This document shows positions 3,546 through 56,111 of a DNA stretch of 56,799 nt, piece by piece (within the stretch, counting starts at the first letter, position 1; the number at the start of each line of letters is the position of its first letter). Source of the DNA: a virus; IMG/VR virus record IMGVR_UViG_3300049783_001292, positions 1 through 56,799 of that record. One strand, 5' to 3'. A model generated the notes under the pieces. That model was not told the origin of the DNA. It made no database searches and saw only the letters and a list, made by a program, of their open reading frames with translations. The translations under genes were made by a program, and so were the position numbers.

Positions 3546-4685
3546 TTACGCTGCAGCTAATACTTCTCTTGATCCGTTAAGGCCAGGCTCAGAAACTACG
3601 TCGTTACCCTCAAGTTCTTCAACAATACGGGCGGCTCGGTTATAGCCAATTCTGAACTTGCGCTGAATGCTTGAGATTGAAACGCGACGAGTTTCAGTGA
3701 CGAACTCGACAACTTCAGGGTAAAGGAAGTCTGGTGTTTCTTCATTGGCACTCTCGACGCTATCGACGGCTACTGGTTGGTTAATAGCGCTAGTTTCATC
3801 GTCACTGTTTTGGTCAAAAAAGTTCTTAAGGGCTTCGCAATGATTAACGATTATCTCTAGTTCAACGGCTTCTTCATGCAAGAATAGATCTTCAGCATCA
3901 CCAGATCCGCCATCCTCTTCAATTTCATAGCTGGTTGATATTTGCTTGATCTTGAACTTCTCAGTTAGCGTGAATGCGACACCATCTTTAGATAAGTTCA
4001 CTTGTTTGATGCTGTAACCTTCATCGAGCAATGTTTTTACCTGGTCAAGCGGGTAGTCACCTTTAAAGCGCACAACGTCTTTATTTGTATTAGCTAAAAC
4101 GAGCAAGTCACCTGTGCTAAAACCGGCGAACTGGATACCTTCAAAACGCGCCTGTTCGTCATTCAATGATTCAATCATGTTAGTTGTTAATGAGTTTGAT
4201 ATGCCTGAGCAATGAAGCGTTGCTGTCTCTAACGAGCCAAGCACCTTGATTAAGAATGAAAGCGCCATTTGTGCGTATGCCTCTTTAGCATCGACAATTA
4301 GCTTCTGGCTTTTTGTGTGATAATAAAGGCTGAAAAAATTTGTTTCTGGTAATACTTTGGCGCAATACTCGGCAAAAACCTCTTCTGCAACTTTTTGTTG
4401 AAGTTCTTCTATCTGAATATCAATAAGATCTTCAATAAGTGTTGCTTCGACTCTTCGGGCCACTTCTTGCGCTAGCGATGCTTTAGGAAGTTTTTTCCAG
4501 CTAAAAACAAAGTTGATTTTATAACCATTTTCAAGCTTTACGATGGGGTCGTTAGGGTTAAGACCAAGTTTTGCTGATTGACTTTCAAGTAAAGGTGAGA
4601 ACATTAAACCTTCTTCTTGTGTGATTTTTTCTTCAATTACTGCGATTACCGGTAACTCTGCTTGAAACACTTGGATATTTTTCAT
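3546..4685 (-). CDS. RdgC-like protein fused to an FtsK gamma DNA-binding domain
   Basis: 379 residues. Residues about 25-260 follow RdgC (a ring-shaped DNA-binding protein that restrains RecA): [16 protein letters not shown] matches the FTPCGSQDMAKMGW region of E. coli Rdg[19 protein letters not shown] matches the MMWIDTVNGLIMVD segment followed by KVLGSLET, and [20 protein letters not shown] matches the late [20 protein letters not shown] segment. Residues about 318-375 are a near-consensus FtsK gamma winged helix ([48 protein letters not shown]), the part of FtsK that reads KOPS DNA. An acidic linker joins them. I know of no standard protein with this fusion. The start ATG follows five 9-bp tandem repeats. 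It is encoded with a nuclease and RecT, so a role in phage recombination or RecA control is likely. Confidence 0.85.
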
Positions 4686-4694
4686 TTTACTGCC

Positions 4695-4739
4695 TTTGAA
4701 TTATTTGAATTATTTGAATTATTTGAATTATTTGAATTA
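4695..4739. repeat. Five perfect tandem copies of a 9-bp unit (TTTGAATTA)
   Basis: TTTGAATTA is repeated five times without error, ending 9 bases before the ATG of the RdgC-FtsK-gamma gene (read leftward the unit is TAATTCAAA). It fills the leader between the nuclease and the fusion gene. Such short tandem arrays can change copy number by slippage; here that would alter leader length and not reading frame. Confidence 0.9.
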
Positions 4740-4799
4740 ATTTAGCCCGTTAGGGGCAGCACTTGCCGGAGTAAACAAGTGCCGCATTGGTGGAACTGG

Positions 4800-6590
4800 T
4801 TAAGCTGCGTCGCTTTCTTGCTCTTCAAGATAAGCATGCTGATTAATAATGTTTAGTAAGTCGGTAAACTCAGAGTTACGAACTCCGTACTCTTCTTTCC
4901 AAAAACTAAGTTGACGCAGCATTTCTGATCTGCCGCTTTGAGTTGTGCTGGAAAATCGCGTTGATAGCCGTTGCTTGACGGGTGATTCTTCTTTAATTGG
5001 GGCGGCTTCCTTGCCTACGCTAGTTTGCGAATCTTGTTGTGCGGTTAGTCGCTGCTCAGTTGCTTTCGCTGAACCTTCGTTATTAACAGCGTGATTTCCA
5101 ATTGAGGGGGCTTGTTCTGCTTGTTGTCGTGCAATAACTGCTTGTTGCTGTTGCGCGATAGCATCTTGCTCTGCCTGGGCTTTAGCACGTTCTTCACTGC
5201 GAATGCGCTGTTCTTCTGCCGCGGCTCTTGCTTGCACTTCACGTTCAGCTTTTTCCTGGGCTGCTTGCTCCATGCGTAATTGTTCTACACGTTTGCGCTC
5301 AGTTTCAGCCTGATCATGCTCTGTTATGCGCATTTTTATTAAGTTGATTAAATCTTCAGTAGGCTTTAACACTAACTGAGCAAAGTCGTTGAATAAAAAT
5401 TTATGGCTTGACGCATGCGCTGTTAAAGCGGCAATGTTCGCATCAATTAATTTACCGGCCTCGGTTAGCTTTTCTGTTGCTTGCGATAATTCGGTATCAA
5501 CCGCAGTTTTTAGTGAGTCAACTTTACTTTTGCCTTTCATTACGCTGTCAAAATCAGGGCGGATAGTAATTACTTGAAAGCCAACTTTACCGTTAACCGC
5601 TGAAACGCGCTGATCCCACTCAGTTTGAGCGTTGGCTTTTAAGTTTTCTTTTAGTTCAAGTTTTCGCGCTTTAATCTCTTTTTCACCAGCACTAATCGTT
5701 TTCTGTAAAACGCTATCAAGTTCAGCCGCCACCAAGTCAAAGTCAGCCAGGCTTGCAAAGCCGTTTTTAACATTTTCGCGTTTTACTTTTAATTCTGCCC
5801 TGGCTAATTTGTAATTTTTAATACGAGCATCTTTATCAATAAAATCCTGATCACTTTCAAGAACAATGCTTTTCTCAAAGTTCGCTTTATCTTTAACGGC
5901 CATAAGGACTTGCTGTAAATTGGTGGTGATTACAGAACCGGCTACATCACACTGAATCGCCGGTAGGTTTTCCACTTCATTAGCAACTAGTTTTTCTGCT
6001 TTTGCTACCACTTCATGATTTGCTAAGTCGATGGCGAACTGCTTCCAACCGGCGATTAACTCTGCTCGACGCTCTGGTACTGACTCGTAGTACATTGAAG
6101 CAAAGTTTCCTGTGGTGCCGTCACTGGTGATAAATAATACCTTTTCAGCGCCGGACACTAGCAATTGTTGCTCTAACTGCCAGTAGTGAGCCGGACCTAA
6201 GACGTTATTTCTTACGTTTTCAGCAAGCGTTTTGTTAAAAAGCTTATGCTCAAAAACAACGTCTTCCATCATTGTTAAGCCATCAAATGACGCGCCGATC
6301 TTCTCGTTTTCTAACAAGCCAGTGACAGGGTAAAAATCACCCACACCATCATCAAGCATGCCCTCAGCGATAGGTCTTGCCATTTCCTCGGTTGCGTGAC
6401 CTTTATCAAACAGCTTTTGTTGCATTGAGGATACGGGCTTAGATATGCCTGTTTTCTTCATATCAAGCAATTCGTTACGGCTCATGTACGGAGAATCACC
6501 CTTCATAGCTGCTGCTTCACTAGCCATGAAGTTTTCTAAGCGAAATTCTAGCCACTGTTGACTGCCTTGCTTTAGCGATAAGATGATCAT
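4800..6590 (-). CDS. YqaJ/lambda-Exo-type recombination nuclease with long coiled-coil extension
   Basis: 596 residues, much longer than the roughly 200-330 of usual YqaJ nucleases. Residues 1-200 are the nuclease: QGSQQWLEFRLENFMASEAA, KGHATEEMARP, then GASFDGLTMMEDVVFEHKLF, which carries the D and E-x-K of the PD-(D/E)xK site, and HYWQLEQQLLVSG. It would resect DNA ends to give 3' single strands for RecT. Residues about 210-400 are helical, and about 410-490 are a charged Q/E/A/R-rich coiled coil (QAAQEKAEREVQARAAAEEQ). The C-terminal 60 residues form a small domain. The ATG overlaps recT by 4 bp (ATGA). Confidence 0.85.
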   Translation of the reverse strand: MIILSLKQGSQQWLEFRLENFMASEAAAMKGDSPYMSRNELLDMKKTGISKPVSSMQQKLFDKGHATEEMARPIAEGMLDDGVGDFYPVTGLLENEKIGASFDGLTMMEDVVFEHKLFNKTLAENVRNNVLGPAHYWQLEQQLLVSGAEKVLFITSDGTTGNFASMYYESVPERRAELIAGWKQFAIDLANHEVVAKAEKLVANEVENLPAIQCDVAGSVITTNLQQVLMAVKDKANFEKSIVLESDQDFIDKDARIKNYKLARAELKVKRENVKNGFASLADFDLVAAELDSVLQKTISAGEKEIKARKLELKENLKANAQTEWDQRVSAVNGKVGFQVITIRPDFDSVMKGKSKVDSLKTAVDTELSQATEKLTEAGKLIDANIAALTAHASSHKFLFNDFAQLVLKPTEDLINLIKMRITEHDQAETERKRVEQLRMEQAAQEKAEREVQARAAAEEQRIRSEERAKAQAEQDAIAQQQQAVIARQQAEQAPSIGNHAVNNEGSAKATEQRLTAQQDSQTSVGKEAAPIKEESPVKQRLSTRFSSTTQSGRSEMLRQLSFWKEEYGVRNSEFTDLLNIINQHAYLEEQESDAA

Positions 6591-7339
6591 GAGTCTTCTC
6601 CTATTTTAATACTTTCGATGATGGATTGTTTCTCTGGCGTTAGTAGCCCTTTGAATTCAACCGTTTGAATTATTTCGCTTGCCGTTTTCTTTTTCTTCTC
6701 GATGAGAGTGCGCCACAGCGGTAAGTTTTTAACAAAGTCAGCGTCAGGGTAGTAATCATCACTAACCTCTTCTGCGGGAGCTGTTGATTGAGCGGGGGTA
6801 ACATCCTTTTCAATCGGCATATCTTGTTGTTCTTCTGCTACAGCAAGTCCTTTGAGTACGTCGGCAAATTCATCTCTAGCCGCAAAGCCACGAGAGCGCA
6901 TTTGAAGCATACGTTTAGGGTATTGCGTCCACGGTCCAGCTTTACCCCATAACTTTGCCGCTTCAGCGTCTTTCCTTGAAAAAGAAACTGTCTTTTCTTC
7001 ATGACCTTTACGCTTAACCTTTGTGTAAGCGGTCATAGTATTTTCATCAAGAGTTTCTTCAAACTTTTCACATAAGGGGGAGGCTAAAACAATCGCTTTT
7101 ATTGCGTCACCCCATAAAGCCGGTCTGCCATTGATAACTGCAATGTTTTGGATTGCTTGCATTGGGGCTAAGCCAATGTCAGCGCCCATTTGAACAGCAA
7201 CAAGCACGTTACCTGGCTTGCCTTGAAAATCTTTAGGGACCATTTCACTGTCAGCCATGATTTGAGCCAATTGCATGGCTTCATTTAGGCTTTGAGGTGA
7301 TAGGTTGAAACTACCGTTGGTTGTCATTTGATTAGACAT
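6587..7339 (-). CDS. recT: RecT-family single-strand annealing protein
   Basis: 250 residues. It shows the RecT core: LNEAMQLAQIMADSEMVPKD, VQMGADIGLAPMQAIQNIAV, INGRPALWGDAIKAIV, and GPWTQYPKRMLQMRSRGFAARD. It anneals complementary single strands made by the partner nuclease. The C-terminal 80 residues are variable. Start and stop overlap the flanking genes by 1 and 4 bases, so the unit nuclease-RecT is a translationally coupled phage recombinase pair like RecE/RecT. Confidence 0.92.
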   Translation of the reverse strand: MSNQMTTNGSFNLSPQSLNEAMQLAQIMADSEMVPKDFQGKPGNVLVAVQMGADIGLAPMQAIQNIAVINGRPALWGDAIKAIVLASPLCEKFEETLDENTMTAYTKVKRKGHEEKTVSFSRKDAEAAKLWGKAGPWTQYPKRMLQMRSRGFAARDEFADVLKGLAVAEEQQDMPIEKDVTPAQSTAPAEEVSDDYYPDADFVKNLPLWRTLIEKKKKTASEIIQTVEFKGLLTPEKQSIIESIKIGEDS

Positions 7340-7515
7340 TACGCTGCGCTCCTTACTTGGGCTTTTGCTTTATAATCGTTGCGGTTGGCACCTTCTTTTT
7401 GCATATCAATAGCCGCATTAATTTGTGCTTCCTTGCCATTGGTGGCTTCAACTGCATACACAAGGGAGAATTTCCCCTTTGATTTAGGCGAAAAAGTTAC
7501 GTTGAATTTTTTCAT
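7339..7515 (-). CDS. 58-residue hypothetical protein upstream of recT
   Basis: Encodes MKKFNVTFSPKSKGKFSLVY then AVEATNGKEAQINAAIDMQK and ends VRSAA. It begins with a TAATG overlap with the stop of the previous gene and ends with a TAATG overlap with recT. The form (beta strands followed by an alanine-rich helix, like short genes that often precede phage recombination genes) is coherent, but the function is unknown. Confidence 0.75.
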   Translation of the reverse strand: MKKFNVTFSPKSKGKFSLVYAVEATNGKEAQINAAIDMQKEGANRNDYKAKAQVRSAA

Positions 7516-7766
7516 TAGCTTGCTCCATTCATAGCAGCTTGAGCCGGAAGAATAGATTCAAGCTCTTTTTTTACGCAGCTAAGACGGGACATAGCATCTG
7601 AGGCATCTAAATTAACCACACGATTCATGTTTTCTGCTACACAAATTACGCTGATGTAGTTTTCCAAAGGGGCGATATCAACATTGATACCAGCAGCAGT
7701 ACAAGCTGATGCTAAGGTACAAATTTGCTCTAATAGAGGGTTAATAATTGCAGTTGTGTTCGACAT
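7515..7766 (-). CDS. First gene of the leftward early operon, hypothetical
   Basis: 83 residues, first gene after the PL-like promoter (leader of about 165 bases with two hairpins). The ATG has GGAG 8 bases upstream. Two helical segments (INPLLEQICTLASACTAAGI, then DAMSRLSCVKKELESILPAQ) flank a hydrophobic strand. No recognised family; by position comparable to small PL-proximal regulators or host-takeover proteins. Confidence 0.75.
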   Translation of the reverse strand: MSNTTAIINPLLEQICTLASACTAAGINVDIAPLENYISVICVAENMNRVVNLDASDAMSRLSCVKKELESILPAQAAMNGAS

Positions 7767-13736: not shown

Positions 13737-14141
13737 ATGGAATCTATCAGTATTGACGATTATCGGGCTATGACAGCGCCAAAGGCCACGAACAAGGCCA
13801 AAGCGAAAGAGCAAGCTCGAAAATTAGCGGCGCTGGTAGAGGTTAATTTAATTGATTTACCTGGTTACACCAAAGAGCATATTTTTCACCCCACACGAAA
13901 ATGGCGCTTTGATTATGCCTGGTTAGATTTGAAAGTTGCGTTAGAGATTCACGGTGGGGTTTTTACCAATGGTAGGCACACTCGCGGTAAAGGTTTTAGT
14001 GAAGACAAAGTAAAGATGAATAGCGCCCAGCTACTAGGGTGGATAGTTATTGAGGCTACAACAGCACAAGTGAAAGATGGGCAAATGCTCACATGGATTA
14101 AAACTGCAATCAACACTAGGAATAAATGTGCATCCAATTAA
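13737..14141 (+). CDS. Putative PD-(D/E)xK endonuclease or Holliday junction resolvase
   Basis: 134 residues. RKWRFDYAWLDLKVALEIHG gives a D then E-x-H arrangement, followed by GGVFTNGRHTRGKGFSEDKV and LLGWIVIEAT, the pattern of small phage resolvase-like nucleases (VRR-NUC/DUF559-like). It sits just before the Q-type gene, exactly where lambdoids carry RusA or Rap. The catalytic assignment is by motif only. Confidence 0.78.
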   Translation: MESISIDDYRAMTAPKATNKAKAKEQARKLAALVEVNLIDLPGYTKEHIFHPTRKWRFDYAWLDLKVALEIHGGVFTNGRHTRGKGFSEDKVKMNSAQLLGWIVIEATTAQVKDGQMLTWIKTAINTRNKCASN

Positions 14142-14685
14142 GTTACTAGCAAAAATGACACCAAAAACTTTAAACCTGGGCGCAATTGGCGGTGGTACAT
14201 CACTTGATACAATAGATTGGCGGGATGCGGCTCACTCATTAGTGGGGTTAAACAAAGATGCGTATAATTGGGCACTGTTTAGATTCGCAGGGCATGACGA
14301 TAAAGAGAGATCTATCGTTAGAGTGTTAACAATGACAGTAACGCTATTGATAAAGATTAAACGATTTAAAATAAAGCCTGATACGTTAGATGGAATCGTT
14401 AGAGCGGCAATGCTTGAGTTCACTCAACCGGTCTGTGTTGAATGCTCAGGTAGTGGGTGGTCAGTTGATTCAAGCATACAAAAGGAATGCTCACACTGTA
14501 ACGGCAGGGGCAAGAAAGCCATATCAAAAAGAGAAAGATGTAAGGTTATCGGTATAAGCAATAGAAGTTATACAAACAATCATGATGAAGTCTCAAAAGA
14601 GTTGATGAATATTATTTCAACCTGGGAACAACAGATTATTAAAAACGTTAATGAAAAAATGGGCGAAGACGAGGAAGTAGCATGA
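14128..14685 (+). CDS. Q-type late antiterminator with DnaJ-like zinc finger
   Basis: 185 residues from GTG at 14128, chosen for AGGA 6 bases upstream; ATG at 14155 is the alternative. CVECSGSGW and CSHCNGRGKK form two CxxCxGxG knuckles as in lambda Q-like antiterminators. These bind the late promoter and let RNA polymerase pass the terminator before the lysis genes. Position (last early gene block, before a promoter-terminator pair at 16697-16809) agrees. Overlaps the resolvase gene by 14 bp and the alpha-CTD-like gene by 4 bp. Confidence 0.82.
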   Translation: MHPIKLLAKMTPKTLNLGAIGGGTSLDTIDWRDAAHSLVGLNKDAYNWALFRFAGHDDKERSIVRVLTMTVTLLIKIKRFKIKPDTLDGIVRAAMLEFTQPVCVECSGSGWSVDSSIQKECSHCNGRGKKAISKRERCKVIGISNRSYTNNHDEVSKELMNIISTWEQQIIKNVNEKMGEDEEVA

Positions 14686-15158
14686 TTAAATCAACAGAAG
14701 AACAACTATTAGAGAAAATCAACGTATTCGCGGATAGTGCTGTGATATGTAGGCAATTAGATAGTTTAGCGAAAGAGCTAACAGAAGAAATCGATTACTC
14801 ACCAGAAAAAACTTACTGGATAAAGGAAGCTCAAGAAAATCTTTACGGTATGTTTGAGTTGTTAATGGATATAAAAAAACAACACCTACTTGATAACAAC
14901 GATAACAACGATAAGAGCGATGAAGAGCATAAAATATTCACCATAGCTAATTTGAATTTATCTGAAGAAGCTACGGATGCGTTAAAAGTTGCTGATCTTC
15001 ACTGTGTATTGGCGCTATTTAACAGCACTGAAGTTGAAGTGCTTAAGGCTTTTAATTACAGTAACATAAGAAACAGAAAGATAATCTTTGAAGAAATAAA
15101 GTATGCGCTTGAAAATTTAGGGTTATTTATTGGCTGTGACTTACAATATAAAGCATAA
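14682..15158 (+). CDS. Alpha-CTD-like phage protein, copy 1 (degenerate DNA-binding face)
   Basis: 158 residues. Residues 16-67 form a helical domain shared with the protein at 54446-55084 (40 of 52 residues identical by eye, including EKTYWIKEA and GMFELLMDIKKQ). After an Asn/Asp-rich linker, residues about 87-152 resemble the RNA polymerase alpha C-terminal domain: NLNLSEEATDALKVADLHCV, STEVEVLKAF, EEIKYALENLGLFIG. The positions of alpha R265 and N268 are E and D here and the GKKSL loop is lost, so DNA contact as in alpha is unlikely. Its ATG overlaps the Q stop (ATGA), so it should be made with Q and may act in late transcription; that role is inference. Confidence 0.75.
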   Translation: MIKSTEEQLLEKINVFADSAVICRQLDSLAKELTEEIDYSPEKTYWIKEAQENLYGMFELLMDIKKQHLLDNNDNNDKSDEEHKIFTIANLNLSEEATDALKVADLHCVLALFNSTEVEVLKAFNYSNIRNRKIIFEEIKYALENLGLFIGCDLQYKA

Positions 15159-15175
15159 AAAATATCGAAAGTACG

Positions 15176-15259
15176 ATGCTTGAACTATCCAACAATCTGC
15201 GCAAAACTCTGCGCAATAAGCGAATGCGCAACAACAGACTGCGCATTGCGCAAAGGTGA
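15176..15259 (+). CDS. Possible 27-residue basic peptide
   Basis: MLELSNNLRKTLRNKRMRNN then RLRIAQR. It fills the gap between two genes and ends four bases before the next ATG. About nine Arg/Lys in 27 residues. No good ribosome site precedes it, and the sequence is dominated by TGCGCA repeats, so it may be non-coding. Confidence 0.3.
   Translation: MLELSNNLRKTLRNKRMRNNRLRIAQR
15198..15252. repeat. Cluster of five TGCGCA palindromes
   Basis: TGCGCA occurs at 15198, 15210, 15225, 15240 and 15247. The steps are 12, 15, 15 and 7 bp, in a 55-bp span of otherwise AT-rich early DNA, directly after the alpha-CTD-like gene. It looks like a protein-binding array or part of a folded RNA. Confidence 0.7.
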
Positions 15260-15262
15260 TTT

Positions 15263-15541
15263 ATGTTTGATAATCCAATAGTGCAAGAAGTTACAAAATT
15301 AAAGCCAGGCCAAGCAATAAAGTTCAATGGAAGGGAGTTAGATGCCGAAGTACCTAGATTTTATCATAATGACTCAACGTTCACTTCAGCGGATCGTGTG
15401 CTTGAAAATATAATAGGCGCTTCTTATGAGTATTATTACGAAGAAAACTTAATGAGTCCTGGCCGCGATGTAACATTTTACAGATTAAAAGAGCCGTTAC
15501 GTGATGGCCGTAGATGTTACGTTTCTCCGGATAGAAGGTGA
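15263..15541 (+). CDS. Hypothetical protein
   Basis: 92 residues. Begins MFDNPIVQEVTKLKPGQAIK and has a Tyr-rich middle (GASYEYYYEENL) and a strand-rich, basic tail. AAAGGTGATTT precedes the ATG. No family recognised; one of the small accessory genes between Q and the late promoter. Confidence 0.7.
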   Translation: MFDNPIVQEVTKLKPGQAIKFNGRELDAEVPRFYHNDSTFTSADRVLENIIGASYEYYYEENLMSPGRDVTFYRLKEPLRDGRRCYVSPDRR

Positions 15542-15903
15542 TTGCCACCAGAGAACAGCTAAAGCAGTGGGAAGATGAAAGGGCCGTAAAGCTTATGGTT
15601 GGCACTATGGATACAAATAGGCCGATTGTTTACATTGAGACTACGCCGTTTAGCGCGAGAATATCAGAAAAATTACGTGGTATTGCCTATGTAATCATTG
15701 TTGATAAACTTCCTGATTATTGCAGCCAAGTAGACGAACTGGTCGATTACGCCACTGTGTTTGATTCTCATGCTGTGCTACAAAAGTCAAGGCTAGGGGT
15801 TGATATGATTAACTGTTCGAGCAATAACCAGACAAAAAAGCGGTCACATGGTTGGTATCGTCAATTCGATAAAAGCAGTAAGAAGCGAAATTTAAGGGGT
15901 TAA
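15538..15903 (+). CDS. Hypothetical protein, GTG start
   Basis: 121 residues. The GTG overlaps the upstream stop (GTGA) after AGAAGG. An alternation of strands and helices (RPIVYIETTPFSARISEKLR, IAYVIIVDKLPDY, YATVFDSHAVLQKSRLG) suggests a compact alpha/beta fold; the C-terminus is very basic (TKKRSHGWYRQFDKSSKKRN). No family recognised. Confidence 0.65.
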   Translation: MIATREQLKQWEDERAVKLMVGTMDTNRPIVYIETTPFSARISEKLRGIAYVIIVDKLPDYCSQVDELVDYATVFDSHAVLQKSRLGVDMINCSSNNQTKKRSHGWYRQFDKSSKKRNLRG

Positions 15904-15904
15904 T

Positions 15905-16306
15905 ATGAAGCGTAGAGTAATTGAAACAGTGAGCAATCATTATTGCGATAAAACCCAACATGAGGCCTTGGAAAGTGTAAGGCTAGATTACCCTGATATT
16001 GATTGGGTTTACTACGGCTGGAGTTCACATAACGACTCTTATGTATTTGATGCTGTGACCGATGTAAGCAACATACCTGAAGGGCTAGAATCTTATGAAA
16101 CAGACGAAGATGCAGTTACAAGGGTAATAGAGGCCAAGTCCACAGGAAAGGCCTGCAAAGACTGCAGGTATTTCAATGGCGTTGATACATGCAATCACAT
16201 TGCAAATACACAAGTAGTTGAATCTACATTTCACAGCCCAAACCCTTATAGAAAATTAAAGGTTTCACCAAATCATATGTGTGACTACTTTGAGTTAAGA
16301 GGTTAA
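15905..16306 (+). CDS. Hypothetical protein with C-terminal Cys cluster
   Basis: 133 residues. The C-terminal 50 residues carry CKDCRYF, DTCNH and HMCDYFE, a four-Cys arrangement that may bind zinc or an iron-sulfur cluster and is seen in small phage proteins. The N-terminal half contains DYPDIDWVYYGWSSHNDSYV. Starts 2 bases after the previous stop. Confidence 0.7.
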   Translation: MKRRVIETVSNHYCDKTQHEALESVRLDYPDIDWVYYGWSSHNDSYVFDAVTDVSNIPEGLESYETDEDAVTRVIEAKSTGKACKDCRYFNGVDTCNHIANTQVVESTFHSPNPYRKLKVSPNHMCDYFELRG

Positions 16307-16307
16307 T

Positions 16308-16586
16308 ATGAAAGAATATTTAGTCCTCGACATAGTGACAAGAATAAACGAAGTGGCGGGTAAAGACGGGGTTCGCGCAATGGTTAATTACACGCCAGGT
16401 ATATTCAGAAGCATACCAAACTCAATGACGATTTGGGACGTAGAGATAGAGCACAAGGGCTATCATCTAGTTGAACGATTTAATAATTCTATGAATATAA
16501 CTGATAGTGACGTTGACCTTGTGGCTAAAAATTTATTGGGTGACTTATTTCGTGACTACTTCAGTGCAAAGATTAGGTATAAATAA
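16308..16586 (+). CDS. Hypothetical protein, last gene before the late control region
   Basis: 92 residues, with strand-rich middle (FRSIPNSMTIWDVEIEHKGY) and an amphipathic C-terminal helix. One base separates its ATG from the previous stop. No family recognised. It is followed by an intrinsic terminator. Confidence 0.65.
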   Translation: MKEYLVLDIVTRINEVAGKDGVRAMVNYTPGIFRSIPNSMTIWDVEIEHKGYHLVERFNNSMNITDSDVDLVAKNLLGDLFRDYFSAKIRYK

Positions 16587-16650
16587 AACAACTGAGCTTT
16601 TGCATCTTGCACACCTCCCGTTATTAGTGTTATATTTCCCATCTTGCAGA

Positions 16651-16680
16651 AATCCGCTCATTTATTGAAGCGGATTTTTT
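16651..16680 (+). terminator. Intrinsic terminator of the rightward early operon
   Basis: AATCCGCT (16651-16658), loop of 10, AGCGGATT (16669-16676), then T-run to 16680. It closes the early block after the gene ending at 16586. Confidence 0.85.
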
Positions 16681-16781: not shown

Positions 16782-16809
16782 GCCTCACCTTAACCGGTGG
16801 GGCTTTTTT
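16782..16809 (+). terminator. Terminator before lysis genes (tR'-like)
   Basis: GCCTCACC, loop TTAACC, GGTGGGGC (one wobble pair), then six T. It ends 15 bases before the endolysin ATG and would block late transcription unless antiterminated by the Q-type protein. Confidence 0.8.
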
Positions 16810-42631: not shown

Positions 42632-45600
42632 ATGACAGATCTTAACAAGTACGCCAAAGACTCAGGCTATTTTGACCAGGTAAAACCAGAAGATGATCGC
42701 TACGAATTCACCAAAGGCGTTACTTCCGCTTTAAGCAGTACGGTATCAGGCGGTAAGGCGTTGGTTGGTGCGGTTACTGGTGATGAAAACTTACAGTTAC
42801 GTTCGCTTGATGATATGCGCCAAAACTCGACAGATAACGCCGGTAAAGTGGGCCGCATTGAGGATATTGAAGGGGTTGGAGATTTTACCGACTGGCTATC
42901 TTATAACCTTGGTTCGGGTACCGCTTCAATTGCGACTATGGTGGCCGGTGGTGGTTTGGGCGGCTTGGCTCTAAAGGGGGCTGCCAAAGGCGCTTTAGTT
43001 AATGCCGGTAAAACATTAGGGGCAACAAGTACAGGTTTTGCGCCTAACTATGGTGAATCATTACAAAGCGCCTACGGCACAACAGGTGAAATCAAGAATC
43101 AAGCGGCGCTTGCGTCTGCCAGTATCAAAACCGCATTAGATTTTATTGTCCCTGCAAAATTATTAAAAGCTGGTATCGGCAAAGAAGCCTCTAAAGAATA
43201 TTCTGAGATTGCAAAGCAGAAGATGATTAATGACAAAGGCTTTGTTACCTGGGCGAAAGAAGCGCTTAAAACAGGTAAGACTGAAGCCTTTACTGAGGGC
43301 TTGCAAACTTACACCGATCAGGTGATGAATAACATACTAACAGAAGGAGATAATCCTCTTGCTGTTCGTAGTGGTTCGGAAATTTTTAACGCTATGGCTG
43401 CCGGTGGTGCCGGTTCTATGGGTATTGGTGCTTATAGTGGTTATCAACAAAATAGAAATGCTGAAGCTTTACGCAATCAATCCAGTGATGTTAATGGCCA
43501 GGTCGATGATTTATGGGAGCTTGCTCAAACCGATGAAGTAGCAAGCAAGCGCGTTAATCAATGGCAGCAAAAGCGCTCTGACGTTGCTAAAACAGGGGTG
43601 CGTGATCTAATTGCTCAAGGTGCTTCACCGGAAGAAGCCAACGCCGAAATGAGAAAATCTTTAATTCTTTCGGCTAAAAAACAAGGTATGTCAGATTTAA
43701 ATGCCATTAGCAGTGCTGACAATGCGTTAACCATGACTGAAGTTGAGATCATGCAAGACAACGCACCGGAGTTTTTTGAAGAACTGAACGGTAGTGAAGC
43801 GTCGGTTGACTATGATGTGCCAACCGCCGCAAGAAATGCCGGAGCTAAAAACGACTTAGAAGCGGGTAAATTTGGTGAGGCGCTAGAGTCTGGTGAACCG
43901 CTAACAATCCCTAATCGAGAAGCGCCTAAAGGCAAAGAGAACGCTGACTATGACGTTCCAGCCGCCGCGAGAAATGCGGGTGCTAAAAATAATGTAGAAG
44001 CGGGTAAGTTTGGTGATTGGATAACAAGCCCTTTGCAAGAGTCATTAGGCACAATGAAGGATCAAACACCGGCTGATATGGTGGGCGAGGCGAGTAGCAA
44101 TACGGGTTATACCCCGCAAGACAGGACAGTGCTTGAAGGTGATGTACTTTCAAAAGAGCAAAGTAGCGAACTCGTTAATCAACGCACCTATACGGGTATT
44201 AATGGTGACTTCATTGAAGGGGAGTCAACGGCGGCAAAAGGTAAGTTTCCTACCGAGCAAGAAGTAAATCAACGACAAGGCCGCGATAAAGCTAAGGCTG
44301 ATTTTTCAGAACAACCCGCACAAGTGACCGATAAAAACATTGTGTATGGCCAAGATAATACGCGAGAAGTTGACGGTAAAGTTGCACAAGAAAAAATGGT
44401 TGATGGCATTAAAAATCAACCCAAGCAAATAACTGACAAGAATATAATTTTTGCTAAAGATACGGATGAATTAGGTAAAGTACACGTTAAAGCCAATGGC
44501 AAACCGTTTAAAAATGAGCGTCTACTTAAAATATCAAGAGGCTATAAAGAAGCGGTTCGTCAAAAAGAACCCGTTGAAGTGATCGCCCATGAAGGTGGGT
44601 TAGCTTGGCGTTATCAGCCGAAGAGTGAAAAATCATCAGAAGCGACCGCACCTATCTCTGGTCCTAAAGCAATCGACGAGGCCGCGCACGAAGCCGCCAC
44701 TTCTCCCATGAATGATCTAGCTGAGCCTACCATTGCTCAGGCGGAAGCCAATAACTACAAGTTAGGCCGAATAGTACATAGTGGCATTAAAATCGGTATT
44801 GAAAACCCGCAAGGCAGCTACCGCAAAGGTATTGATGGTGACGGCAAAAAGTGGTCCAATAAAATCAATCATCATTATGGTGACGTTACCGGCTCAAAAG
44901 GCGCAGACGGTGACGCACTTGATGTATTTGTTAACCCTAATACGGAAAGTAGCACGAATGCTTACATCGTTGACCAAGTAGAGCCGAAAACAGGCGCTTT
45001 TGATGAACATAAAATCATGCTTGGTTTTGACTCTAAAGATGATGCCGAAAAAGCATACTTATCTAATTATGATAAAGGCTGGAAGGGTGTTGGGGCCATT
45101 AGTGAAGTGCCTATTGAAACATTTAAAGGTTGGGTGGAAAAAGGCAACACTATTCAAGCTTATAAAAAGCCCGATACACCCCAAGAACAAACACCACAAG
45201 AAACGGCCTCACAAAAGGCCGTTGTCGTATCTGAAGCTAAAGAAACCGATGTTAACCTTACCAGTGAGGGTGACATACCTCAAGAGACTGATATGTTTGG
45301 AGATAGCGCACCGGTAGAGCCTAAATCTCAATCCAAAATTAAAATTGGAAAAATTGATACCGACGATTGGGCTGAACACCTTGAAGATGCCGATGGTGAT
45401 ATTGAGCAAGCTAAACAGGACTATAACGACAGTTCACTTGAAGCTATTGACTATGGCATTAATGAGATCGACAGTATAGACAGCCCTAGCCAGGTTGCAT
45501 TAGCTGCGGATGAAATACAAAAATACATCGATGCGGGGGTAACTGGTTATGATGAAATCGCCGTTAATCGAATATTAAGAGCAAATAAAAAGCTAAATAA

Positions 45601-48600
45601 AGTTCAGGAACCTGAAACGGCTCAGGACAGCGAACCTTCATGGAAGGAGTGGATGGGCAAAGACGAGCAAGCCCAATTATCTGTCACTGCCAGAGCAATT
45701 GGAGATCTGGAAGAACGCATTGTGTTAGCCAGTGAGCCTTTTTCAAAGAAAAAGTACCAAAAAGAGTTGGCTGAGCGAAACGAACAGAGAGAAATGCTTT
45801 TATCTGGCATGACTATTGAAGAAATACTGAAAAACCAAAAAGCCACTGAAACCCTCGGCGGTGAAACTGGTGTCATTCAAGGCATAGAAAGGACCACCAC
45901 TGAAAGCCTTAACGATGAAGCCGAACAAGCCAGCGGTCCAATTTCCGGAAATAGAAAGCTACTCGACTTCATGGTGCAAGAGATTAAAAAATCTTACATT
46001 GCCAACAACAATGACTTAAAGGCCGTAGGTAAGCGATATTATGGCTTAGAAAAGGCTCTCGACGTTACGCCTCAACAATTAAAATTGCTACAAGAGGCTT
46101 TTGAAACGGTTAACGTGATCAAGCGCAGAGCTAGCACTCAAAACTTGTTAGGAACACTGAAGAACAAAGATGCTGCAGTGTTAAAAGTGTTTAATGGCCA
46201 TGTTAAAGCTTATGAAGGGCAACCCAACCTAGATGTAAGAACTAAAAAATCGGTTGAGTTCCAAGCTTACAGTACCCCTTCACCTATGTCATTTTTAAGC
46301 AATATTGCTGCCGGTGTTGATGCTAATTCTACGGTGTTTGAGCCTACCGCTGGTAACGGATTACTGCTATTAACTTCAGCACCAGAAAACACCTTTGCCA
46401 ACGAGTTAGACCCTGTTCGTGCGGATTCATTAGCCTATACCGGTTTTAATGTTACGATGAAAAACGCCACTAATAGCCCTTTTGATGGTTGGCTAGATGG
46501 ACCGGTTGATGCGGTACTTGCCAACCCTCCTTTTGGGCGTTTACGCGATGATAACGGCAAGCCAACTGATTTTACCTTTACGGACAAGCAAGGTAAGTCG
46601 CGTGTATTTAAAGAAATAGATCATGTGATTGCTTACCAGGCATTGGAGGCCATGAAGGATAACGGCAAGGCTTCGCTGATATTGGGCGCACCAAAAGAGG
46701 CGAGTGATTACAAAGGCAATAACAAAATATTTTTAAATTGGCTTTATCAGAACTATAATGTTCAACATCACATTGAAGCTGATGGTAAACTCTATAAAGG
46801 GCAAGGTGCTGCATGGCCCTTGCAGATGATTACAATTAATGGTCGGGCGCTTGAAGGTACGGGTAAGTTTGCGCCCATCAAAGGACAAATTGAGCGATTA
46901 ACATCGTGGGAAGCTATCTATGAAAACTACAAGCAATCTGGATTACTGGACACCAACAACAAGCAATTTAAGCTTGGAAGAAAAAGCGCTAGTAACTTGC
47001 CGGATAGCCAAGGGGCAAAAGTTGTCCCACTTTCTGATAGAGCAAACGATACAGGACAATCTGATAGCGGAGTTGATGGAAATGCCAGTAGCAGACAGGC
47101 AAGACCTCAAGCCGTATTACCAGACGATAGATCCACAGGAGCTAGCGCAGATGCTAGTGTCGGATTCGACAGTCAACCAGATATTATCGACACTGGATTG
47201 GTCAAAGCAGACAGTAAACCAAAGACCGGAAGAACTGGCAATACAACAAGCGAAGCAACTGACAGTGTGGGATTACCTGGACAACGCCCAAGCGAATCAA
47301 TAGCCGAGCAAAAAGGTCACAGCAAAGCACCAAAGCAAATTTCTACCAAAGTAAAAAAGATAAATGACTTCCAGGCTGAATATCAAACGGCCTCTGACGG
47401 ATTCAACGACAAGGTATTAACACCGGTTAATATCGCCTCTTATACGCAATCAGCATTAATCGACATTCAAACCCGTCACGGCAGTATTGATGATTTTGTT
47501 ATGGCCCGTTTAGGCTACGACAACAAAAAAGATTTACACAAAGCCTTTATGGGGCTGCAAGCCGACTCTGTTGCGCTTGCGGTTGATGCCATTGAAAAAG
47601 GTCGCGGCATTATTATTGGCGATCAGACCGGTGTAGGTAAAGGCCGTCAAGCTGCTGGTATTATCCGCTATGCGCTTGAAAACGGCAAAACGCCTATTTT
47701 TGTTTCTCAAAAGCCGAACTTATTCACTGATATGTACGACGATCTTGAAGATGTTGGTGTGAAGGGCTTTACCCCTTTAATTGTCAATCAAGACAAAGGT
47801 TACATCTCTAAAGATGGTAAAAAGGTTTTTAACCACTCGTCAGCCAACCGTAAAAAGCTAATGGATAAAGTGTCAGCTAACCGCGAACTGCCTAAAGGTT
47901 ACGATGCTTTATTTTTAACTTACTCGCAAATATCATCAGATAAGCAAGGCACAAAAACTAGCATGATTGATGGCTTGTTAGATAACGCTATCTTGGTCAT
48001 GGACGAGTCGCACACTGCTGCCGGTGGTGCGTCTAAGCTTGGTGTTGCCTTTCAAAATTTTGTAAGTAAAGCGGCAGGGGTAACTTACTTGTCGGCTACT
48101 TATGCCAAGCGCCCTGATAACATGTTGCTTTACATGCGCACTGACTTAGGCTTAGCAACCGATAACTACGAAAACTTAGTTAATGCGGTCCAAAATGGCG
48201 GCTTGGGTATGCAAACGTACATTGCCAGTAAACTTGCTGAAGCAGGGCAGATGGTAAGGCGTGAACGCTCTTTTGAAGGTATTAGCATTAAAGATGCCGT
48301 TATCAAAGACGCTTCAGGCGAAACCGCTAAGTTATTTGACCAAACAACCGAAGCACTACGGGCCATTCAAGATACATCGGCTTATTGGCGCTCTTATGTA
48401 GAACGCGACTTAGCCAACGACATACAGCGTGAAACGGGCTTGGATACTCGTATTTCAGGTAATCAGTCAGATACCGCAATCAACGTCACCTTGTTTAGTT
48501 CAGTTGTGCACAACTACATACGTCAACTCACACTAGGGTTAAAAGCAAAAGAATCAGCGCAATTGGCCATTAAAGCCATTAAAGACGGTAAGCGCCCTGT

Positions 48601-51600
48601 TATTGCCCTTGAAAGCACACTAGGATCCGCATTAAAAGCGTACATGGATAAGTACGGGAAAGTGACCGGTGATCATGCCGATAGCTTGAATTTTTCTACC
48701 ATGCTTGAAGCTGTATTGGATAACACGCTTGCTTATTCAACGAAAGAACCTGGTGAGAAAAAAGGCGTTAAAACCGTCGTCAGTATTGATGCGGTTAGCG
48801 ATCCGATGGTGCAAGAAATGTATCAACAAGCTAAGGCCGCTATTAAGCGCATTGATGCCAGTAAAATACCAGCTTCACCTATTGATACAATCCGTCATGA
48901 GATAACCAAGGCCGGTTATAGTGTTGCTGAAATTACAGGTCGAGACTTGATCATTGATTACAACGACAACGCTAAAATCATTAATCGTCCGGCAAGCGAG
49001 GACAATCGACGCGATACTGTTGATAGGTTTAATACCAGTAAGCTTGACGTTATTATTTTAAACCAAGCCGGTTCTACGGGGCTTTCTTTACATGCCAGTG
49101 AAAAGCTTGCTAAAGAACACCAAAAACCTAGATATATGGTCATTGCTGAGCCTTCTCTTGATGTAAATGTTTACATGCAGATGTTAGGTCGCGCAAACAG
49201 AACAGGGCAAGTTGTGCCGCCAAGTTATGATAATGCCTGGCTTGATTTACCTTCTGAAAAACGCCCTGCTGCGGTTATAGCTCGTAAAATGAAAGGCTTG
49301 AACGCCAATACTTCAGGCAATATCGATTCAGCAACCAGTGTTGAATCTATTGATATTTTAAATGAATACGGTGATGAAGTTGTTCGCAATTACGCGGCAG
49401 AGAATCGCAGCATGCTGGCTTCATACAATGCTAAGTTAGTTTCTTTGCCTGAAGAAGATGCGGCAAATTACTTCTTGGGCAAGGTTGCTGTACTTCCTGT
49501 AAAAATTCAAGACAAGGTGTTAAATGAAATTGAAGCCGCTTACAAGGATCACATTGCTTTTCTTGATGCGACAGGGCAAAACCAACTAAATACTAAGTCA
49601 CTTGATTTAGAAGCGCGACCTATTTCACAAAAAATTATCGCTGAAAGTCGCGCCAGTGCGGGTGTCTTTGCTGAGCCGGTCTATTTAACGAAGGTAGAAG
49701 CAAAGGCGCAAGGTAAAGCGCCTAGTTGGTCTGAAGTCAGTGATGCTTTAGCCGAGTCGAGTCAAGCCGAGTTTGATGTAGCCACTCAGGAAATGCAAGA
49801 CGATACTGTTTATAGCGAATCGTTATCTGGTCGTTTAGTTCAGCTACAAGAAAAGGAGGCCGAGGCCCGTTCTGAAGGAAAGAAAACAGATGGCTATGCG
49901 ACACAAATTAACGGCATAAAAGAGCGTCAACGAGATTTTGAAGCCGACAAGCGCCAAATAAAGAATGATTTTAGCGAAGGGGGTACTTACAGTCACGGCG
50001 CATTTATTAATGTTATGCCTAACGAAAGCTTTGAAAAGGCGGTTCATGGCGTAATTGTTGGCTTGGACTACAAGCACGAAACCGGAAACCCTACTGCTAA
50101 ATCAAAATGGAAACTAAAGGTAATGGTTGCCGATAGAATGCGCACCATTCCAATTAACTTAAGCCGCGCCCAAGATGGGGTGATCCAAGGTAAGCGTTGG
50201 GATAGTCAATCAAACATGGCCAAGATGTTTGATCAAATGAGTCAGTTACCACAAACTGAAACGCGACATATTATGACCGGCAACCTTGTTGAAGCAACCA
50301 CATCAACAGCAAAGCAAGGTCGTATCGTGCCATTTTCAACGCATGATAACAGAGTGATTCAAGGGCTGTTGTTACCGGCAAGCTTTAACGCAGACGAAGA
50401 TGTAAAAGCTAAATCTCAAGCGACAACCGAAGAGTCGGTGAAATGGCTGCTTAATGTTGACGATGATATTTTTGCCTCAATGGGTCTTAGCACGAATGAT
50501 AAAGCGGTCACGGTTAGGCGCAAACGATGGGAGGAAGGTTATTCAGTCGAAATGCCTAAGTCAGCCGCCAAAGGTAAGAAGTATTGGGGTAACGAGGCAA
50601 TTGAGGCTGTTATTGGTGAACAAGCGGTTAAAGGTGGTGGTACATTCTCAGTCAACTTGACTAAAGAACAAGTTATGCCTTTTGCCAAAGCCATGAAAGC
50701 GATTAACCCGTTAAGTGTCCAGGGGCAGGTACAAATAAAATCTTTCAATAAAATGTTTGGTAAAGAGTCTAATGATTTTGCCAAACAAGATATTGTCTTT
50801 AGTAGAGATAAATCAGCGGGGGTCGTATCTGATAGTGGGTCCGTGGGCGTTAGTGATGCGACCACCGTTAGTCAAGCTGATGCTGATATAGTCGTCGATC
50901 GTATCATCAGTGATTGGGATGGCGGCTCGTTGCGCAAGGATGATTTTATTGTTGTTTCTACGTTTGACGAACTTCCGCAAAACATAAAAGATGCCGCTAA
51001 AGATCAGGGCGCTGAAAATCAAGTAGGTGGCGTATTCCATCGAGGTAAAACCTATTTAGTTAGAGACAAACTTAAAGATCAACAGGAAGTTGAAACAACA
51101 ATTTTCCATGAAACCTACGGGCATCATGGCATAAGAAAGTTATTCGGTAAAGAAATCGCGCAAAAGCTAAATCAACTACTCGTTGGTATTGGCGGCATGA
51201 AAGGCATGGACAAAATAGCGAAAAAGTATGGTATTGATCTGGATGCTTATAAGGAGGGGCTTGCTGGTTCAACATTAACCAACGCCCAGGCGCAAACTAT
51301 ATTGATGGACGAGTTACTTGCGCATTTAGCGGAAAATAACAAACCGTCAGTGATGCGTAAAGTTAGAGAAATTATTGGCGCTGTTCGTCAGTGGCTTAAA
51401 AACTCTGGCTTTATCAAGCTACAAGGCGTAAGCGATAGCGAGTTGTTTTATATCTTAAAGCAAGCACGAAAAGCGGTTCAAGGTGGCAATGGCAAAGGCG
51501 GCAATGGTGACATTCGCTTTTCAAGAGTCAGTGATGTTGTTGATAAGCTAGCCCCTAAAAAGCAAAGCAATACCCTTATTGCCAATGAAGATGAAGGTAA

Positions 51601-54301: not shown

Positions 54302-54446
54302 TGGTGGCGAGGGTGCTTGCTATGACTAGCACACCCCACATTATCCAAAGCGCATATGTTAGACGTTGTAAGTATTTTCTTTTCATACGTCTATCATAGG
54401 CTTTATATCGAAAAATGCAAAACACTAAACCTATGGGGATATTCAC
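54288..54446 (-). CDS. Possible 52-residue membrane protein
   Basis: GTG at 54446 shares its G with the stop of the alpha-CTD-like gene (TAGTG). MNIPIGLVFCIFRYKAYDRR is followed by a basic stretch and the membrane segment YALWIMWGVLVIASTLATII. It overlaps the end of the giant gene by 14 bp on the other strand. Credible through its coupling and clear membrane helix, but too short to be sure. Confidence 0.45.
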   Translation of the reverse strand: MNIPIGLVFCIFRYKAYDRRMKRKYLQRLTYALWIMWGVLVIASTLATIIYS

Positions 54447-55084
54447 TACATCGACAAGCCTTGCTCTGCTAGTTTATCGACTATCTCTGTCATCATCATT
54501 TTAGTTACCACTTTGTCTTGCAGCAGTGCTAGCATGCCATATCCTTGCAAATGATCTAAGGTCCGAATACTCCTTCCCTGTAAAGCCATGCTAGTTTCAG
54601 GTGTAAGTTTGAGAGTGCTAGTATATACAGTGTCAGGGCCACCACTGACTAACTTTAGTCCATAACTAGATAATAATGCCTCTACGTCGGTAAGCGATGA
54701 TTTACCGAACCCCTCAATCGTTAATAGTTCGAGACTAGAACATAATAACAAGTGGCGTAGTGTGAAAATTCCTTGTTTAACCAGGTGGTTTTTAGTTCTT
54801 GCTGTCAAGTCTAAATCTTCAACAGGCATACTTTCGTCGAAGCCACTAGCGTTAGCTGGTTCTATTTTGCTTTCACTTACAAGGCTTTGTTTTTTAATGT
54901 CCATCAAAAGCTCGAACATGCCGTTCATATTATCAATGGCTTCTTTTATCCAGTAGGTTTTTTCGCTTGAGTAATCTAAGTCCTCAGTTAATTCCTTAGC
55001 TAGTTCGTCAAGCGATTTACAGATAACACCATTATCCGCAAATTTTGGTATTTCATTTAACAGATCAGGTAATTGCTTTTTCAT
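54446..55084 (-). CDS. Alpha-CTD-like phage protein, copy 2 (DNA-binding face kept)
   Basis: 212 residues from ATG at 55084, chosen for AAGGAA 6 bases upstream. Residues 15-66 are the shared N-terminal domain (FADNGVICKSLDELAKELTE, EKTYWIKEA, GMFELLMDIKKQ). Residues about 87-148 follow RNA polymerase alpha-CTD closely: PVEDLDLTARTKNHLVKQGI, LELLTIEGFGKSSLTDVEAL, LSSYGLKL, against VDDLELTVRSANCLKAEAI and [21 protein letters not shown] in E. coli, with the equivalents of R265, N268, G296 and S299 kept. A second, degenerate copy (LKLTPETSMALQGRSIRTLD ... IVDKLAEQGLSM) fills the C-terminus. Could bind promoter UP-type DNA or compete with alpha. Overlaps nothing upstream: 10 bp after the PP-loop gene. 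Confidence 0.82.
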   Translation of the reverse strand: MKKQLPDLLNEIPKFADNGVICKSLDELAKELTEDLDYSSEKTYWIKEAIDNMNGMFELLMDIKKQSLVSESKIEPANASGFDESMPVEDLDLTARTKNHLVKQGIFTLRHLLLCSSLELLTIEGFGKSSLTDVEALLSSYGLKLVSGGPDTVYTSTLKLTPETSMALQGRSIRTLDHLQGYGMLALLQDKVVTKMMMTEIVDKLAEQGLSM

Positions 55085-55094
55085 TTTTATTTCC

Positions 55095-56111
55095 TTAGTC
55101 ATTACACATACAAGGCATATCCGAGCCAACATTTAGCTCAGGGTTTGATATTACTTCGCGCCACGAATAACTACGGCCTAGCCCCCTAACCTTTGATGGG
55201 GTCCATATTTTTTCAATAGAAACATAAGCAACAGGTTCGGGCTGCATAAAATCAAGATCAAGACCTCCCCCTTTGACATTTACCTCAATGTCACCAAGTA
55301 GAAAATCAACCTCTTTTTTATCCATATCGGCGATGATACCTATTAAAGAATCATCCTCTATGCGCCGTAATAACTTAGCATCTATATGCCGCCCCCTGGC
55401 ATTGTCCGACTTTAAAAAAGCATCTTCAACTTCTAAAGCCTTTTTTAAAGCTTCAGGTTCGTTAAGTGCCATTTCTCTAATTTCTGGCGCTTTCATGTTA
55501 GGACACATATAACAGCTACTTTTTATCGGCAAAGGTAGTGATGATTTTTTTATTATCTCTATACAATCATCACGGTCAATATCCCAATCCATGAGCGGAT
55601 AAATCACATTGTATTTATCGCAATCAGCATCTTTTCTTCGATGATCCTCACCAGCATCAAAACCAACAACCCTTGTTATCTTGTTTTTGATATCAGTGAG
55701 CTTTCTATATTTCCCCCATGCTTCTTTAGCCGGTAAGTGGTTATTAATAAAAATATCAACTTGCTCAACCTTGAAGCGTAACGAACAGCTTTTACCTGCA
55801 AAAGCTGGGGGTGGTAAAGTGGAGGATTTAAGGCATAGTTCATGGAGCTTAACTTGCTCCTTTGTTTTTCCGTCACGCACATGACAGCGTTTTATTTGAG
55901 GCCAACCAATAGAGAGTAGCCAATTATTTATAATGGTTAAATGTTGGTAAGTTCTTTCGCGCTCTGATCCTGTGTCAGCAAAGACAATTAAATCAGGTTT
56001 TTTTAATCCGCGAGAAAACCATTCTAATATCAGTGCGGTGAAATTAACCCCACCACCACAAGTTAAAACGGTAAAGTTGTTTTGCTGTAAAGCCTGTTCA
56101 GTCGTTAGCAT
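55095..56111 (-). CDS. PP-loop (PAPS reductase-like) phage protein with altered loop
   Basis: 338 residues. LTCGGGVNFTALILEWFSRG is the PP-loop, but the usual final Ser of the S-G-G-x-x-S pattern is Phe here. LIVFADTGSERERTYQHLTI and SSCYMCPNMKAPEIREMALN are the hallmarks of phage PAPS-reductase-family proteins; the CxxC may bind a metal or carry sulfur. Family members activate substrates with ATP for sulfur or amine transfer to nucleotides, or act in DNA modification. The Phe change may cripple or redirect this one. AAGGG precedes the ATG; it heads the leftward cargo operon under the palindromic repeats at 56132-56194. Confidence 0.8.
   Translation of the reverse strand: MLTTEQALQQNNFTVLTCGGGVNFTALILEWFSRGLKKPDLIVFADTGSERERTYQHLTIINNWLLSIGWPQIKRCHVRDGKTKEQVKLHELCLKSSTLPPPAFAGKSCSLRFKVEQVDIFINNHLPAKEAWGKYRKLTDIKNKITRVVGFDAGEDHRRKDADCDKYNVIYPLMDWDIDRDDCIEIIKKSSLPLPIKSSCYMCPNMKAPEIREMALNEPEALKKALEVEDAFLKSDNARGRHIDAKLLRRIEDDSLIGIIADMDKKEVDFLLGDIEVNVKGGGLDLDFMQPEPVAYVSIEKIWTPSKVRGLGRSYSWREVISNPELNVGSDMPCMCND

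Follow-up and report, generated by a model that had tools for sequence, protein, structure and literature searches.

An open reading frame on the plus strand at 14682-15158 (P0001), already noted in a preliminary description of this DNA, encodes a protein of 158 aa, which consists of an N-terminal domain (N-domain) and a DNA-blind domain resembling the C-terminal domain of the RNA polymerase alpha subunit (alpha-CTD). Its start codon shares the sequence ATGA (14682-14685) with the stop codon of a Q-like antiterminator gene (14128-14685, plus strand), confirming the overlap claimed earlier for the two genes, and GAGGAAG upstream of the ATG is a possible ribosome-binding site. From the gene order and the ATGA overlap, P0001 is likely produced together with Q. 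A second protein of 212 aa, P0003, is encoded at 54446-55084 on the minus strand (the strand was omitted in the preliminary description), with its ATG at 55084 preceded by AAGGA; it carries the same N-domain, followed by an alpha-CTD with a DNA face and a second, degenerate alpha-CTD. No third copy is found within the window, which is the whole 56.8-kb stretch analyzed, a provirus record terminating in the 3' part of ssrA. Because the ssrA sequence at the junction is identical to that of Colwellia genomes and approximately 100 bp are repeated between both window ends, we take the record to be, most likely, a temperate phage integrated in a relative of the marine bacterium Colwellia. The portal protein shows 50-52% identity to the portals of Vibrio phage douglas 12A4 and Stx-type podophages. 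The window also contains short tandem TTTGAATTA-type repeats (4695-4760) beside a gene ending at 4685, and a 3889-aa protein (42632-54301) with pyrophosphatase, strawberry-notch-type helicase, and LPD38 domains, a mix typical of very large polyvalent phage proteins. Directly upstream of P0003 and on the same strand, the gene at 55095-56111 (minus) encodes a protein that by eye is like PAPS-reductase-type phage proteins; it has no match in Pfam or NCBIfam.

For the Q-like gene, a GTG start at 14128 is favored within a reading frame that opens at 14077. Its product matches phrog_127 (3.6e-6), a match that is unspecific by itself, as it also occurs in chaperone-bearing control genomes, and the only Pfam match is to a DnaJ-like zinc motif. 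A full-length homologue is present in Vibrio phage douglas 12A4 (29% over 178 aa, E 5e-21). We assign the gene as Q because the phrog_127 match is combined with this homologue, which lies upstream of lysis genes.

Downstream of P0001, five copies of TGCGCA lie within 55 bp of the gap (15198-15252), compared with 23 copies in the whole 56.8-kb window, and could form an operator or regulatory site. They are followed on the plus strand by four small ORFs without family matches (15263-16586) and by a candidate late promoter pR' (16607-16636), TTGCAC-18-TATATT with TG before the -10 element, which is flanked by CATCTTGCA repeats at 16603 and 16640. Promoter-like matches in the late region are fewer than expected by chance, so the candidate pR' is proposed from its context. 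The leader folds better than shuffled sequences (z -3.1). The candidate promoter is followed by a hairpin (AATCCGCT/AGCGGATT) with a T run, a possible terminator (16651-16676, plus strand), and by an intrinsic terminator, the candidate tR' (16782-16803, plus strand), immediately before the endolysin gene. The order of candidate promoter, terminator, and lysis genes is similar to that in lambdoid phages and in douglas 12A4, where, read by eye, the end of Q leads to TTGACT-18-TATGAT, a terminator, and lysis genes. In both phages, the Q gene also follows, and overlaps, the same phrog_503-type gene. However, P0001 and the four ORFs without family matches separate Q from the candidate promoter here, and a P0001-like gene is absent from douglas 12A4, the closest phage in which a Q homologue was found. 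The Q proteins of this family therefore do not generally need P0001, and since the douglas 12A4 Q gene leads straight to the promoter, P0001 is probably an inserted accessory gene and not a conserved Q partner. Because P0001 lies upstream of the candidate late promoter, it is probably expressed along with Q from the early transcript and not from the late promoter.

The roles of the determinant residues of alpha-CTD are well established, and we compared them in both proteins in E. coli numbering, with the Colwellia RpoA residues (R, N, G, K, S) as the reference. The first alpha-CTD of P0003 (residues 86-145; 54650-54829, minus strand) retains R265, N268, G296, and S299 and has S in place of K298, so that 4/5 positions of the DNA-binding 265 determinant are kept (R, N, G, S, S). 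It scores 47.1 bits against PF03118, above the gathering threshold of 23.8 bits, and matches solved alpha subunits in phmmer (4.7e-8). The C-terminal residues 158-212 (54449-54613, minus strand) also align with Colwellia RpoA, with a score of 66 compared with 22.5 +/- 4.3 for shuffled sequences, and are found as well by an alpha-CTD profile that was built partly from the first domain of P0003. This second alpha-CTD was overlooked in the preliminary description; with E265 and M268, it is, judged by its residues, degenerate and DNA-blind.

The alpha-CTD-like domain of P0001 (residues 87-150; 14940-15131, plus strand) scores 18.6 bits against PF03118 (E 0.0016), which is below the Pfam gathering score of 23.8. 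However, its alignment score with the B. subtilis alpha-CTD is 82, compared with 23.9 +/- 4.4 for shuffled sequences, and 0/2000 shuffles score that high; the hydrophobic frame of alpha-CTD is also retained. At the level of sequence, the domain is thus a real, diverged alpha-CTD despite its sub-threshold Pfam score. Predicted structures of both proteins match alpha-CTD structures (0.6-0.8 A rmsd and TM 0.87-0.88 for P0003; TM up to 0.83 in Foldseek for P0001), values that are to be read with the bias towards the alpha-CTD fold introduced by alpha-CTD rows in the alignments used for both predictions. E and D had been noted earlier in place of R265 and N268, together with the loss of the GKKS loop, and the comparison agrees: P0001 has E265, D268, S296, I298, and I299, and a 5-residue insertion that sits in a loop of the predicted structure and breaks no helix. 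The sigma-facing 261 determinant reads V, E, D, D in P0003 (258 E, 259 D, 261 D) and I, A, N, N in P0001, while the activator-facing 287 determinant is kept in P0001 (T285 E286 V287 E288). The window thus holds, as first proposed, two paralogues in separate transcription units, one with and one without the DNA face of alpha-CTD.

The C-domain of P0001 and the first alpha-CTD of P0003 align with a score of 26 (shuffles 23.4 +/- 4.4). Descent of the P0001 domain from either alpha-CTD of P0003 was considered and is not supported by direct alignment, the scores with the first and second domains (26 and 21) being at the shuffle level. The alpha-CTD tree is poorly resolved, with very long branches, including that of the P0001 domain, and fits a module swap and fast divergence in place alike. 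Extra alpha-CTD genes in Colwellia genomes were also dismissed as a candidate, because the second PF03118 matches in these genomes are to a 535-aa protein beside a dnaE-like gene, which by eye we take to be an ImuB-type polymerase and not alpha.

Compared with the C-domains, the N-domains of the two proteins (P0001 residues 9-70, 14706-14891, plus strand; P0003 residues 8-69, 54878-55063, minus strand) are closely related. They are identical at 44/62 positions (71%; E = 6e-29 for the pair), and the best block gives exactly the 40/52 identities counted by eye before. The dN between the copies is approximately 0.22-0.24, dS is saturated, and third codon positions differ at 34/62, indicating an old duplication with the N-domain under strong purifying selection. 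Conservation covers polar and hydrophobic positions and is found chiefly in the second helix (EKTYWIKEA..N..GMFELLMDIKKQ). Structure prediction gives, with moderate confidence (pLDDT about 56-82), a hairpin of two helices for the N-domain (residues 6-36 and 41-74 in P0001). The two-helix hairpin is a common assembly form. Weak sequence matches of the N-domain to ROP dimers are not significant (E 0.24). NCBIfam rpoA models run on the full proteins reach into the N-domain (residues 46-146 of P0003 and 47-150 of P0001). The isolated N-domain matches no rpoA model, and a relic of the alpha-NTD dimerization helix was rejected on this ground; its alignment with Colwellia RpoA is no better than that of shuffled sequences, which also argues against an alpha-NTD origin. 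The alpha-NTD through which alpha assembles with beta and beta' into RNA polymerase is, as far as sequence can tell, absent from the N-domain of P0001 and P0003.

No significant match to the N-domain is found in Pfam, PHROGs, NCBIfam, or PDB; a phrog_27747 match (E 0.0093) was set aside as too weak. Relatives were found neither by tblastn in phages and plasmids nor by pattern scans of IMG/VR and GTDB contigs, the latter using short exact patterns that distant relatives would escape. A profile search of samples of 399 family, 395 order, and 369 class genomes, chosen around the Colwellia with the identical ssrA end, gave nothing real, its single weak match being to the coiled coil of a methyl-accepting chemotaxis protein.

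Stand-alone alpha-CTD proteins with other N-domains are found at 34 IMG/VR loci and in several named phages, including Bacillus phage Goe8, Microbacterium phages Mazun and Morrill, Ruegeria phage V16, Morganella phage Mecenats66, and Rhodococcus phage Finch, and ORF40 of Erythrobacter phage L02 is also such a protein (PMC9127768). Like P0001 and P0003, these proteins are small and have an alpha-CTD at or near the C-terminus and an unrelated, non-alpha N-domain in front. R265 and N268 are kept in those compared, with few exceptions (Mecenats66 has N268 only, and locus L056 has R265 only), in a set whose IMG/VR part is biased, since the search patterns contained R or N. None of the compared proteins has the N-domain shared by P0001 and P0003, and the presence of two paralogues, one of them DNA-blind, sets this phage apart from them; in the two records with two alpha-CTD proteins (L057 and L061), both members of each pair keep R265 and N268. 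Proximity to Q, which the preliminary description had suggested looking for around other copies, did not recur: none of 22 other phage records with alpha-CTD-like proteins has a convincing Q (one 14-bit match). Relative to RNA polymerase alpha itself, the first domain of P0003 is an alpha-CTD by fold and sequence and P0001 a sub-threshold relative; both proteins differ from alpha in being without an alpha-NTD, and hence would not assemble into RNA polymerase, P0003 in carrying two tandem CTDs, and P0001 in being without the DNA and sigma determinants. Phages thus appear, from these sequences, to have taken up the alpha-CTD repeatedly as a module, and the DNA-blind sister is the unusual part here. 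Stand-alone phage alpha-CTD proteins were known already, and what is new is a paralogue pair differing in the DNA face; our search of the open literature found no description of a DNA-blind phage alpha-CTD or of a link to Q.

Starting from the domains of both proteins, their determinant residues, the constraint on the N-domain, and the positions of the genes, we infer how the pair might act. We tentatively favor a reading in which P0001 may be a partner or antagonist that does not bind DNA and uses the shared N-domain to meet P0003 itself or the target that P0003 meets. P0003 would be a stand-alone regulator that assembles via its N-domain and whose first alpha-CTD would bind A+T-rich DNA or promoter complexes. 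P0001 would bring the same N-domain with an alpha-CTD unable to grip DNA in the usual way; made along with Q in the lytic phase, it would join P0003 or take the same N-domain target, giving complexes with fewer DNA-binding heads. The action of P0003 would thereby be relieved or redirected as the phage turns to late transcription. In favor of a partner or antagonist, the N-domains are 71% identical whereas the C-domains align at the shuffle level, and the DNA and sigma faces are kept in the first alpha-CTD of P0003 and lost in P0001. Both proteins are predicted to fold as alpha-CTD and the N-domain as a two-helix hairpin, and the genes lie in different transcription units, with that of P0001 overlapping Q. 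Phage T4 offers a possible precedent by analogy: its Alt and ModA proteins act on R265 of host alpha and alter promoter use (PMC2988021). Here, too, a phage would act via the alpha-CTD DNA face, but Alt and ModA are enzymes that modify host alpha, whereas this phage encodes its own alpha-CTD copies. Against a partner or antagonist, the moderately confident N-domain model is silent on partners, the P0001 gene is missing in the nearest phage with a related Q, and no orthologue was found that would show the pair kept together. A DNA-blind alpha-CTD is also already present in P0003 as its second one, which may make a separate dead partner superfluous.

It is possible, although doubtful, that the two proteins never meet and instead bind the same third party, of the host or the phage, via the N-domain at different stages, with their C-domains as adaptors. 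The conservation of polar and hydrophobic positions alike in the N-domain, strongest in the second helix, would suit such a shared target, as would the different transcription units, and in other phages the alpha-CTD is found behind many unrelated N-domains, a pattern to be expected if these proteins are adaptors. Against a putative third party stands the lack of any significant N-domain match in Pfam, PHROGs, NCBIfam, or PDB. We regard as distinctly unlikely that P0001 plays no role in transcription and is an accessory gene with an alpha-CTD in decay or used as a mere small scaffold. The place after Q is a usual accessory insertion site, Q leads directly to the promoter and terminator in douglas 12A4 while P0001 and four ORFs intervene here, and the P0001 CTD sits on a very long branch. 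These points are opposed by the strong purifying selection on the N-domain between the copies, the intact P0001 reading frame, the retained hydrophobic frame of alpha-CTD, and the placement of the 5-residue insertion in a loop.

Lambda Q competes with host alpha-CTD for shared sites on NusA-NTD and NusA-AR2, and either of them can release NusA autoinhibition (PMC7171158). This competition makes a link between P0001 and Q plausible, and P0001 might be an alpha-CTD decoy that acts on host factors (NusA or an activator), aiding Q loading or keeping NusA open late, which we consider unlikely. A decoy is consistent with the overlap of the P0001 translation start with the Q stop and with the retention of the 287 determinant despite the loss of the DNA and sigma faces. 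However, the 287 likeness amounts to four residues, and the douglas 12A4 Q homologue does without such a gene. NusA-AR2 contacts the basic DNA face of alpha-CTD, and this face is missing from P0001, a further point against a decoy. A direct contact between lambda Q and alpha-CTD has also been excluded (PMC7171158). A broader scheme, a two-protein switch derived from the alpha-CTD, appears very unlikely as a whole; in it, a DNA-binding form produced from the attachment-site operon would be paired with a DNA-blind form that is produced with Q and acts on the competition among alpha-CTD, NusA, and Q, so that late transcription would start when the DNA-blind form is present. The pair is of use beyond this phage: phage proteins bearing an alpha-CTD copy are common but have hardly been studied, two natural proteins that differ mainly in the DNA face offer a ready-made experiment on the roles of alpha-CTD beyond DNA binding, and the position beside Q makes the proposed competition between alpha-CTD and Q for NusA testable with phage parts.

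Several of the other phage loci are of separate interest. Fusions in which sigma-70 region 4 stands N-terminal to an alpha-CTD are found in the IMG/VR loci L031 (4260-5198), L034 (1255-1980), and L056 (3750-4514), and sigma region 2 was not found in these three proteins. By their domains, each could be one polypeptide reading the -35 element and the UP element together; a literature search found no paper on such phage fusions. L057 (4215-5787) has a tandem of a gene with an HTH/sigma-4-like domain and an alpha-CTD, a second alpha-CTD gene, and a gene that by eye is sigma-region-4-like. The single virus record L061 encodes two different alpha-CTD proteins (4497-5120, plus strand, and 7244-7669, minus strand). 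In Mecenats66 (L064, 3641-4204), a DUF2591-annotated protein has a C-terminal alpha-CTD without R265 and with N268 kept, and a second DUF2591 protein, without an alpha-CTD, is encoded nearby.
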